NCBI GenBank assembly: GCA_028598975.1
Contig: JAQRMU010000041.1
Location: 1-32,429 of the forward strand
Origin: Gammaproteobacteria bacterium
GTDB lineage: Bacteria > Pseudomonadota > Gammaproteobacteria > Nitrosococcales > Methylophagaceae
Length of the DNA: 32,429 nt
Direction: 5' to 3'
How positions within the stretch are numbered: the first letter of the stretch is position 1; every line of letters begins with the position of its first letter. Made by a program: the position numbers and the translations under genes. Shown here one piece after another: positions 26,906-32,128 of this stretch. Below the pieces are notes generated by a model that ran no database searches, was not told the DNA's origin, and saw nothing but the letters and a program-made list of their open reading frames with translations.

Positions 26906-26932
26906 ATGAAAATAAGCGAGAGAGTGCTGTGA
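26906..26932 (+). CDS. Eight-codon leader ORF overlapping the next start
   Basis: ATG AAA ATA AGC GAG AGA GTG CTG TGA encodes MKISERVL. TAGGA lies eight bases upstream, a better ribosome site than that of the following gene. Its TGA overlaps the GTG start of the receiver/GGDEF gene (GTGA), a typical arrangement for translational coupling. Whether the peptide is made is inference. Confidence 0.35.
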   Translation: MKISERVL

Positions 26933-28230
26933 AAAGTTTAAATGTATTAGTTGTTGATGGATCGGCGGCCTTTCGTGATGTCGTGCGAGAAATTCTGGAA
27001 AAAGCAGGGTGTATCGTCACAATTGAAAATACAGGAGCTGAAGGGTTGAAGAGTATAAAGCTTCAAGACTTCACCTTAATATGTACGGGCTATCATTTAC
27101 CTGATATGGCGGGAGTTGATTTTTGTAGCCAAGTTCGAGGCTTGCCAGAATACAAGCATACATCACTGCTCTTGTTAACGGCCGAAGATAATACTGCAAC
27201 ATTGAAAAGAGCGATGCTTGCCGGTGCAACCGATATATTCAATAAGCAGGATATTGCTCAACTCGAAGCCTATGTTCAACGCTTGGTAACAAGAGAAACT
27301 CGCACCATTACTGGTCGAGTATTATTTGTAGAAGATTCTGCCGCAGTACAAGGTGTTTTTCTCGATATCCTTATAGAGATGGGGCTCGATGTTGATGCAT
27401 ATACACGTGCTGAAGACGCATGGATCGCCTATCAACGTGGCGGCTATGATCTGGTCATGACTGACATCATATTAGAAGGTGCGATGAGCGGTGTCTCATT
27501 AGTTCGTAATATTCGACGACTGGATGGTGATGATGGTGATGTTCCTGTTATTGCGATATCGGGCTTTGATAATGTCTCTCGCCGAATAGAGCTCTTCCAC
27601 TTAGGAATTAATGATTATGTGGCAAAACCAATCATTCAAGAAGAGTTAATAGAGCGTGTTTATAATCAAATTCATGGCTACCACATAAAACTGGAATTAC
27701 GCTCACAACAACAATCTCTTAATAGAATGGCGATGTTAGATGAGACGACACAGTTGTTTAATCGCTATTCTTTACGAGAATTTTCAGGCCGCTACTTTAG
27801 TGATGTTGATAGAAATAACAGTTTTCTTAGCTTAGCCGTTTTAGAGATAGATGACTTCAAACAAATAGAGCAGGAAGATGGGGCAGAGAAGAGTCTTGCC
27901 GTAATCGCTGAGTTAGGGATCTGGTTAAAACGGATTGTGCGTGAAGCAGATATGGTGGCACGTTGGAAAGGTGAGAAATTTGTCTTTCTATTAGCAAACT
28001 GTGAGAAAGAAGCTGCAATGGATTTAATGTTACGCGTATCTTCTCGACTAAAACGCTTAAAGCCAGCAGATAGGTTAATTTCAGCTAGCATTGGGATTGC
28101 AACAATGTCAGTAGGTGAAAAACACAACCTAGCAAGTTTATTTCGCTTAGCAGATAGTGCGTTGGCACAAGCGAAAGAAGTCGGTCACGATCAAGTGTTT
28201 ACTTTCGAAGGAGAGACTGGGGAAGTCTAG
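26929..28230 (+). CDS. Double-receiver protein with a degenerate GGDEF domain
   Basis: 433 residues, GTG start. First receiver, about 4-120: the acidic pair is D10-G11 rather than DD, and the phospho-Asp position is Gly54 (CTGYHLPDM), so it is probably not phosphorylated. Second receiver, about 132-248: acidic residues (VEDS), Asp179 in VMTDIILEG, AISG and VAKP are all intact. The GGDEF domain, about 270-430, has KGEKF (347-351) where GGDEF/GGEEF belongs, and lacks the normal LTGLxNR (LDETTQLFNR) pattern in part. It is therefore likely a signalling protein without diguanylate cyclase activity. A leader ORF may couple its translation. No kinase gene is adjacent. Confidence 0.87.
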   Translation: MKSLNVLVVDGSAAFRDVVREILEKAGCIVTIENTGAEGLKSIKLQDFTLICTGYHLPDMAGVDFCSQVRGLPEYKHTSLLLLTAEDNTATLKRAMLAGATDIFNKQDIAQLEAYVQRLVTRETRTITGRVLFVEDSAAVQGVFLDILIEMGLDVDAYTRAEDAWIAYQRGGYDLVMTDIILEGAMSGVSLVRNIRRLDGDDGDVPVIAISGFDNVSRRIELFHLGINDYVAKPIIQEELIERVYNQIHGYHIKLELRSQQQSLNRMAMLDETTQLFNRYSLREFSGRYFSDVDRNNSFLSLAVLEIDDFKQIEQEDGAEKSLAVIAELGIWLKRIVREADMVARWKGEKFVFLLANCEKEAAMDLMLRVSSRLKRLKPADRLISASIGIATMSVGEKHNLASLFRLADSALAQAKEVGHDQVFTFEGETGEV

Positions 28231-28236
28231 TTATCT

Positions 28237-28408
28237 CCATAATCAATGAAGGTGCTTGGGCATATATCCGTAATCATTCAATCTGCAAATTTTTTATTTG
28301 GTCATCCCAGCATGCTTTTAGCTGGGCTCTACTTAATACAATAGATTCTCGATAAAAACACTCGAGAATGACGGGGAGTGTAAGAAGCTGCACCTTCATT
28401 GATTATGG
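28237..28408. mobile_element. 172-bp MITE-like element with perfect 19-bp inverted ends
   Basis: CCATAATCAATGAAGGTGC at 28237-28255 is the exact inverse of GCACCTTCATTGATTATGG at 28390-28408. The element carries no coding potential and fills nearly the whole gap between two convergent genes: six bases after the upstream stop and seven before the prmB stop. It contains a second inverted repeat (28301-28372). No target duplication could be made out. Confidence 0.6.
28301..28372. repeat. GTCAT-ended inverted repeat nested in the MITE-like element
   Basis: The left arm 28301-28331 (GTCATCCCAGCATGCTTTTA...) and right arm 28342-28372 (inverted GTCATTCTCGAGTGTTTTTA...) are 31 bases each and share GTCAT, C, TG-TTTTTA and TCTA positions. 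Each arm folds into its own short hairpin (CCAG/CTGG and CTCGA/TCGAG). It belongs to the same family as 19782-19813 and 21156-21238. Confidence 0.7.
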
Positions 28409-28415
28409 GGGGGGA

Positions 28416-29345
28416 CTAAGTACCATAGTGTTGTGAAAAGCGGATGCATTGCTCGAAGTTCAGCATAAATACACCATGGCCACCATATTCAAAATCTAGC
28501 CACATAAACTCAATGTCAGGCCATTTATCCATAACAGCATAGTCACTATTACCGACTTCAACAAATAAGATACCTGTGGGTGTTAGGAACTTATGAGCAT
28601 CTAATAGAATTCTTTCAACCAATGCTAAACCGTTATCATCGGCTTCAAGGGCAGACGTTGGCTCATGGTTATATTCTGCAGGTAATGTTGCCATTTCATC
28701 AGCACCAACATAGGGTGGGTTGCTGACAATGAGATCATATTTTTTACCATTAAGAGCAGCCCATAAATCAGACTGAATGGCATGAACATGCCCATTCAAA
28801 TGATGCTTTTTAATATTTATCTTGGCAACATCAAGTGCATCTAAACTGATATCAACAGCATCGACTTGAGCTTCTGGAAATGCATCCGCACAAGCAATAG
28901 CAATGCAGCCACCACCAGTACAAAGATCAAGAATATCTGACACTGCCTCAGCTTGCATTAACCAAGGCATAAACTGATCTTGAATTAATTCGGCAAAGGG
29001 CGAGCGAGGAATTAAAACACGCTCATCAACATAGAAGGGCAAATTAGCAAACCATGCTTCATGTGTCAGATAGGGAACAGGGACGCGATCCACAACGCGT
29101 CGTTCAATTAAATCGGCAATGGCTTGCTTTTCAGCATGAGTCAGTCGGGCATCAGCAAACAGTTCCGGAAATTCAGTTGCCGGTAAGTGAAGACTATGTA
29201 GAATAAGTTGTAATGCATCATTAAACGCATCGACATTACCATGGCCATAGAACAGTTCGGCAGCATTAAATTGTGATGTAGCCCAACGCAATACATCACG
29301 TAGCGTATATAGCTCATCAATGACTGTTTTCTGAATGGATGCCAT
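28416..29345 (-). CDS. prmB: Ribosomal protein L3 glutamine methyltransferase
   Basis: 309 residues, SAM-dependent N5-glutamine methyltransferase. The NPPYV motif at 209-213, the SAM loop DLCTGGGCIAI at 140-150 and the PrmB-type IPRSPFAELI at 112-121 (PrmC has PRPET) identify it. The N-terminal helical domain is complete. It starts one base after the leuC stop, so the two are probably co-transcribed. In many relatives prmB lies beside aroC instead. A run of eight Gs ends two bases past its stop codon. Confidence 0.95.
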   Translation of the reverse strand: MASIQKTVIDELYTLRDVLRWATSQFNAAELFYGHGNVDAFNDALQLILHSLHLPATEFPELFADARLTHAEKQAIADLIERRVVDRVPVPYLTHEAWFANLPFYVDERVLIPRSPFAELIQDQFMPWLMQAEAVSDILDLCTGGGCIAIACADAFPEAQVDAVDISLDALDVAKINIKKHHLNGHVHAIQSDLWAALNGKKYDLIVSNPPYVGADEMATLPAEYNHEPTSALEADDNGLALVERILLDAHKFLTPTGILFVEVGNSDYAVMDKWPDIEFMWLDFEYGGHGVFMLNFEQCIRFSQHYGT

Positions 29346-30947: not shown

Positions 30948-31481
30948 TTATTCCATATTAGCGTGACGATGACGCATTTCTTCTTCAGCAATACCGCGCT
31001 CATGGATTAGATGAGACACCATCGCTTCTAAGAAAATGAGTGTTGATAATTCAAACATAGTTCCCATAGGCATGCCCTTTGTAGGAGCAAAACTATCGTC
31101 ACCACCGACTTGAATTGTCTGATCAGCTAAATCACCAATCGTTGAGCTAGCTTTAGAGCAAATTAATACTACTTTAGCGCCTTCAGATTTGGCTTTGTTA
31201 GTAAATGAAACAAGTTGAGTTGTTTCACCTGAGCCAGAGATAACGATTAATAAATCGCCTTCACGGATGCTCGGTGTACTAATTTCACCTTGAACAAATA
31301 CTTCATAACCACTATGCATCAATCTCATCCCTAGGAAGTTACCAACCAGTTTTGAGCGACCTGCACCTGTAATAAAGATGCGTTTGGCATCATCACACAT
31401 TGAAACTAATGTAGCTTCGAGTGAATTATCAGTATCACCAAGGATATTAGTGATTTTATTTAAGAGTAGATCACGATGCAT
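30948..31481 (-). CDS. hxlB: 6-phospho-3-hexuloisomerase
   Basis: 177 residues, SIS-domain isomerase converting hexulose-6-phosphate to fructose-6-phosphate in the RuMP pathway. The SIS motifs FITGAGRSKLVGNFLGMRLMHSGYEVFV and ISGSGETTQLVSFTNKAKSEGAKVVLI are complete, as is PKGMPMGTMFELSTLIFLEAM, the family's catalytic region. It starts 11 bases after hps and shares its promoter and terminator. hxlB is the symbol used for this enzyme in many genomes; phi is also used. Confidence 0.96.
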   Translation of the reverse strand: MHRDLLLNKITNILGDTDNSLEATLVSMCDDAKRIFITGAGRSKLVGNFLGMRLMHSGYEVFVQGEISTPSIREGDLLIVISGSGETTQLVSFTNKAKSEGAKVVLICSKASSTIGDLADQTIQVGGDDSFAPTKGMPMGTMFELSTLIFLEAMVSHLIHERGIAEEEMRHRHANME

Positions 31482-31492
31482 TGTAATATTCC

Positions 31493-32128
31493 TTATGCTG
31501 CGTCAACTAAAGCACGTAATTCTTTAGCTGAGTCAGCTGGAGAATCTGCACCGTAGATTGCTGCACCAACAACAACGATTGAAGCACCAGCTTGAACTGT
31601 GCCTTGGATTGTATCTTTGTTGATACCACCAGCAACTGAGATTTTAACATCTAAGCCAAGACCAGCGATTAACGCTAGATCAGCAAAAGGTGTTTGACCT
31701 GCTGCTTGAGCATCAAGACCAGTGTGAACACCGATGATTTGTGCGCCGTTACCAGCTGCTGCTGTAGCAACTGCTGCTTTATCTTCAACACCGATTAAAT
31801 CGATTTGAGCTTCTGCACCGTTTGCTTTAGAAGCATCGATAACGCCTTGGATTGTCGCCATATCAGCCGCACCCAAAACTGTAGTGATATCACCACCAGC
31901 TTCGAAGAAAGGAGTTGACTCGTAACCACCAGCATCCATAGTTTTAAGATCAACTAAGATTTTTTTATCAGGGTGAGCAGCTTTTAAAGCTTTAACAAGT
32001 TTAAGACCGTTGTATTTGATACAAGGTGTACCGATTTCTAAGATATCGACATGAGGAGCAACTGCTTCTGCTAAAGCCATAGTTGCGTCGAAGTCTAGAG
32101 AATCTAGAGCCATTTGGATTTCTGCCAT
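31493..32128 (-). CDS. hxlA: 3-hexulose-6-phosphate synthase
   Basis: 211 residues, OMP-decarboxylase-fold aldolase joining formaldehyde to ribulose-5-phosphate, the key RuMP step. Family motifs: MALDSLDF, HVDILEIGTPCIKYNGLK, VDLKTMDAGGYE (metal and phosphate site), GVHTGLD and SVAGGINKDT. Its ribosome site is strong (AGGAG, eight bases). The very repetitive alanine-rich codon choice (GCT, GCA) suggests high expression, fitting the near-consensus promoter upstream. Also called hps. Confidence 0.97.
   Translation of the reverse strand: MAEIQMALDSLDFDATMALAEAVAPHVDILEIGTPCIKYNGLKLVKALKAAHPDKKILVDLKTMDAGGYESTPFFEAGGDITTVLGAADMATIQGVIDASKANGAEAQIDLIGVEDKAAVATAAAGNGAQIIGVHTGLDAQAAGQTPFADLALIAGLGLDVKISVAGGINKDTIQGTVQAGASIVVVGAAIYGADSPADSAKELRALVDAA

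Follow-up and report, generated by a model that had tools for sequence, protein, structure and literature searches.

The question raised by this locus is whether a perfect inverted repeat that fills the space between two convergent genes almost exactly is a signal serving both messages or a mobile element that came to rest there. In the window (the whole stretch of DNA analysed here, 32,429 nucleotides), a plus-strand gene for a two-receiver GGDEF (diguanylate cyclase) protein (26929..28230, stop codon at 28228-28230) faces a minus-strand gene for a prmB/prmC-like protein (glutamine-N5) methyltransferase (28416..29345, stop codon at 28416-28418), and a 172-bp segment occupies nearly the whole of the 185-nt gap between them. 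Its two arms, 28237-28255 (CCATAATCAATGAAGGTGC) and 28390-28408, are 19 nt long, 100% complementary and spaced by 134 nt, lying six bases from the end of the plus-strand gene at 28230 and seven bases from the stop codon of the minus-strand gene, in full agreement with the preliminary description of the segment; simple arithmetic gives a probability on the order of 1e-7 for such a perfect pair to arise by chance within 185 nt. The gap contains no open reading frame of 100 amino acids; at about 150-182 bp, the element is short and devoid of coding capacity. The long hairpin previously claimed for read-through from either side was also borne out, since the predicted RNA folds of the two strands (-62.7 and -59.3 kcal/mol, with z values of -6.0 and -6.7, respectively) are far more stable than those of shuffled sequences, none of 200 shuffles reaching the stability of either fold. 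In the mRNA, the termini of the element close a hairpin stem of 22 pairs. Elsewhere in the window (30948-32128), genes of the SIS-domain and HUMPS/OMPdecase families adjoin each other and probably encode the 6-phospho-3-hexuloisomerase and hexulose-6-phosphate synthase of the RuMP pathway, which fits a methylotroph.

The segment is best explained, with a probability of about 0.93, as an IS630-group MITE that landed between convergent genes with almost no gap and has been tolerated there. BLAST searches of its own genome yielded 48 matches to the gap segment and 55 to the family consensus, so that the segment is not single copy, and the family terminal repeat TATACCCRTRATNWHTSAADNTGC, counted with up to three mismatches, occurs 94 times in this genome versus 3 times for the reversed pattern used as control. 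The family matches stop at the terminal repeats. Complete copies of the REP-like type, mostly 147-200 bp long, contain two palindromes of opposite orientation, GTCATCCCAGC...GCTGGG and CTCG...CGAG, and most of them have imperfectly pairing termini, the longest perfect run usually being 3-11 nt of 27. Tandem junctions between family copies read GGGTATATACCC, as predicted from TA duplication. In other copies the same termini surround unrelated interiors, as in a type of about 230-300 bp with CTCCCTC/GAGGGAG palindromes; this second MITE type is represented by loci L126, L128, L129 and L130, located on contigs C79, C10, C6 and C15 of the same genome, respectively. Short length, absence of coding sequence, terminal inverted repeats and many interspersed copies are features of bacterial MITEs, as are termini in common with an autonomous transposon and empty sites in relatives, both of which were likewise found here. 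A literature search retrieved no description of this MITE family in Methylophaga.

Two further observations concern individual copies. At locus L134 (contig C21:3333-3496 of the same genome) an upstream reading frame apparently takes its stop codon from the terminal repeat, which extends into that frame (..TATATCCGTGACCATTGA). The interiors of four copies (L016, L018, L020 and L030) carry a partial duplication of the GTCATCCCAGCATG half-palindrome, which suggests stepwise growth of the interior.

The copy in the window is composite. The family consensus matches positions 28263-28409, i.e., it begins at an inner left end and not at 28237. This inner left terminal repeat (TATATCCGTAATCATTCAATCTGC, 28263..28286, plus strand), the usual left terminus of family members, has one mismatch to the pattern and, as is ordinary in the family, pairs imperfectly with the right end, with 70% complementarity over 27 nt. 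Between them lie REP-like palindrome 1 (GTCATCCCAGC-loop-GCTGGG, 28301..28330, plus strand) and palindrome 2 (TAGATTCTCG-loop-CGAGAATGAC, 28342..28371, plus strand), both delimited by copy alignment and predicted hairpins, the second being oriented opposite to the first. The right terminal repeat (28385..28412, minus strand), recognized by pairing and consensus match, includes the right 19-bp arm, and in place of its outermost TATA (expected GGGTATA) there are eight consecutive G at 28407-28414, likely a slippage tract. The outer left terminal repeat (TATCTCCATAATCAATGAAGGTGC, 28232..28255, plus strand, two mismatches to the family terminal pattern) is a second left end, which includes the left arm and pairs perfectly with the right end over the 19 nt of 28390-28408. 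As the outer terminus, located by homology, starts at 28232, the element essentially equals the whole gap. The two left ends are separated by TTGGGCA, giving GGGCATATATCC, two changes away from the GGGTATATACCC of tandem insertions.

The perfect arms form an extra outer pair. Judging from sequence resemblance, the simplest history is that a second copy would have inserted at the left of an older element whose 19-bp ends matched perfectly, after which part of the array, including the intervening right end, would have been lost. The contrast between outer arms that are perfect over 19 nt and an ordinary pair that is 70% complementary could also reflect template switching on the hairpin, by which the right end was copied to the inverted position and no nested insertion took place. 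This alternative is possible, albeit on the unlikely side: copy L025 possesses a perfect 18-nt pair and no second left end, so that perfect ends arise without any template-switch event, and the TGCTTG following the outer left arm resembles both family end L132 and the left end of a Vibrio IS630 element, as nested insertion predicts.

Transposases of IS630-family elements recognize the terminal repeats and move the element by cut and paste into TA dinucleotides. A likely autonomous partner of the MITE family was found in Methylophaga sp. NORP53, with which genome G017 was equated because three termini occupy matching positions. This genome harbors two identical 1111-bp elements with the family terminal repeats at both ends (0 and 1 mismatch), enclosing a single open frame that encodes an IS630 transposase (NCBIfam NF033545, E 1.5e-65). 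A 1076-bp pair of terminal repeats on contig C17 of the same genome was rejected as an autonomous element, since it flanks host genes and not a transposase. An IS630 element on a Vibrio campbellii plasmid matches the pattern exactly where it begins on the left, and is flanked by C-TA...TA-G; an enterobacterial plasmid IS630 (L299) was discarded as a source of target information because its left end is lost. The NORP53 and Vibrio campbellii elements share with the window element the 24-bp terminal pattern and the TA junctions, but are about 1.1 kb long and carry a transposase gene, which the window element lacks. The GGGTATATACCC junctions and the Vibrio flanks support TA target duplication at the level of the family, the right end of the window copy being degenerate. 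According to the title of an article by Tenzen and Ohtsubo that PMC2170065 cites, IS630 transposes preferentially to TA in CTAG, and insertion into TA with its duplication has been shown for ISY100, which is related to IS630 (PMC2170065).

The association between terminal repeats and transposase also holds in an independent set of named genomes, where a homologous transposase lies within 1.2 kb on the inner side of 34 of the 128 exact terminal repeats and solely on the outer side of none (0/128), a further 45 pairing at MITE distance. Among genomes of the genus, the number of terminal repeats is 6, 46, 111, 126 and 295 in the five that have transposase matches and 0-3 in most of the rest; G004, G013 and G020 contain 13-26 terminal repeats with no transposase detected. 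An IS630 transposase was not found in the window's own genome, a 94-contig assembly of a kind from which repeated elements can drop out, and the family copies there may for this reason be stranded. Mobilization in trans by an IS630 transposase is the most likely way in which the family moved, as far as its sequence relationships indicate. The same 24-bp IS630 terminus recurs across Gammaproteobacteria, namely in Photorhabdus, Vibrio, Colwellia, Psychromonas, Fukatsuia and Legionella. In the Alteromonadaceae MAG DT_4 (within L145-L261) many uniform 160-bp copies with this terminus are present, which looks like a recent MITE burst.

The REP-like palindromes in alternating orientation that fill the interior, together with two Y1 genes in the own genome, recall REP/BIME repeats, and a repeat moved by a RAYT (Y1) transposase, with incidental terminal repeats, was therefore weighed. 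About 1.3 kb from one of the Y1 genes there is a GTCAT palindrome pair of similar, though not identical, sequence. The other, of RAYT type (L296, contig C43, approximately 38216-38548), is closely ringed by GTAG-type GTAGGAGCG...CGCGAA REP palindromes and represents a classic REP/RAYT arrangement. In the present family, unlike in REP/BIME, the palindromes are bounded by IS630-type terminal repeats at which the matches end, and the same repeats enclose unrelated interiors as well as whole IS630 elements. The shared IS630 termini thus largely refute movement by RAYT, which is highly improbable as an explanation of the segment. A broader scheme, in which IS630-type termini repeatedly captured REP-like palindromes, the resulting chimeric MITEs spread hairpins without any RAYT, and the copies adjacent to stop codons process or stabilize many 3' ends, is quite unlikely to hold in full.

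Comparison with relatives accounts for the exact fit of the segment. Nine congeners, in which the orthologues of the prmB/prmC-like protein are 76-81% identical, keep the convergent pair without the element, their stop codons being -29 to +15 nt apart versus 185 in the window. Two of them, G008 and G017, lack the element at this position although the family abounds in both genomes. Hence the position is not conserved, and the segment is neither single copy nor fixed in place across relatives, the combination that the preliminary description had named as an argument against mobility. The element fills the gap exactly because the distance between the stops was nearly nil, so that the element itself is the gap. 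The intergenic DNA of the congeners does not align base for base with this gap and the right outer end is degenerate, which makes the target duplication at this particular site unreadable.

Often only a few bases separate a family copy from a stop codon. Convergent pairs account for 12 of 38 element-bearing gaps but for 6 of 63 other gaps in the same loci, which is an enrichment (Fisher p 0.007, with genes taken as open reading frames and not from a trained gene finder, and with partly overlapping loci de-duplicated). A similar enrichment of the pneumococcal RUP between convergent genes has been interpreted to mean that insertions downstream of genes are tolerated (PMC3049150). In the lineage of the window, an IS630 transposase would have recognized the terminal repeat and moved a gene-less copy in trans into TA, and this copy would have come to lie between the REC-GGDEF and prmB stops, which were then separated by a few bases at most. 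Such an insertion would have broken no reading frame and separated no gene from its promoter, and would on this account have been tolerated. The earlier proposal of a non-autonomous mobile element is well supported by the many copies, by termini shared with an intact IS630 transposon, by junctions of the TA type and by the empty site in each of nine congeners.

Its companion proposal, a shared termination or 3'-processing signal, found no support. A very stable hairpin on both strands, flush with both stops, and the enrichment of convergent pairs speak for a dedicated bidirectional signal in place of a mobile element. However, dozens of copies lie elsewhere, and 26 of the 38 element-bearing gaps are not convergent but separate tandem or divergent genes; the same gene pair in the nine congeners has nothing comparable. 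Neither strand of the segment contains an intrinsic terminator (a G+C-rich stem followed by a T run), an Rfam search of the segment gave no family match and a scan of it for promoter-like sites was empty. A dedicated signal is consequently extremely improbable. Co-option of a transcribed MITE hairpin to serve both messages as an RNase III site or a stability site, by analogy with the Correia/NEMIS elements of Neisseria, is a different matter, but still unlikely. The 22-pair stem in the mRNA speaks for this reading, as does the cutting of Correia transcripts by RNase III at the terminal repeats (PMC10969869, PMC2229807); against it, the imperfect termini of most complete copies show that the family as a whole has not maintained perfect pairing. 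The hairpin in the 3' ends of both mRNAs follows from the termini and the internal palindromes, and may expose both messages to RNase III, whose cleavage of so strong a hairpin is possible by the same analogy. A selected role for the hairpin is not indicated.

Among known systems, the closest counterpart is RUP (repeat unit of pneumococcus), a short gene-less repeat of about 100 copies, with termini common to IS630-Spn1, TA targets and mutual insertion (PMC2229807, PMC3049150, PMC10969869). The present family is likewise a short gene-less repeat with termini common to an IS630 element and enriched between convergent genes, but it differs in sequence and host, in the paired REP-like palindromes inside, in the greater length of its copies and in that its own genome yielded no transposase. 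The Correia/NEMIS elements, about 105-155 bp long with 24-bp terminal repeats ending in TA and forming mRNA hairpins cut by RNase III (PMC10969869, PMC2229807), are classed as IS630-derived (PMC2817692); their terminal sequence is unlike that of the present family, in whose window copy no promoter-like site was found.

The family of the segment is thus an IS630-type MITE family comparable to RUP. Its interest resides in the clear identification of a likely partner and in the empty sites, the mechanism itself not being new. It provides a non-pathogenic, well-populated example of an IS630-driven MITE, for which the genus also supplies clean empty sites and a likely autonomous partner, and the wide gammaproteobacterial spread of the terminal repeat makes the latter useful for annotation. 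The locus also illustrates that a mobile element can mimic a designed intergenic signal, as insertions are tolerated between convergent genes that nearly abut.
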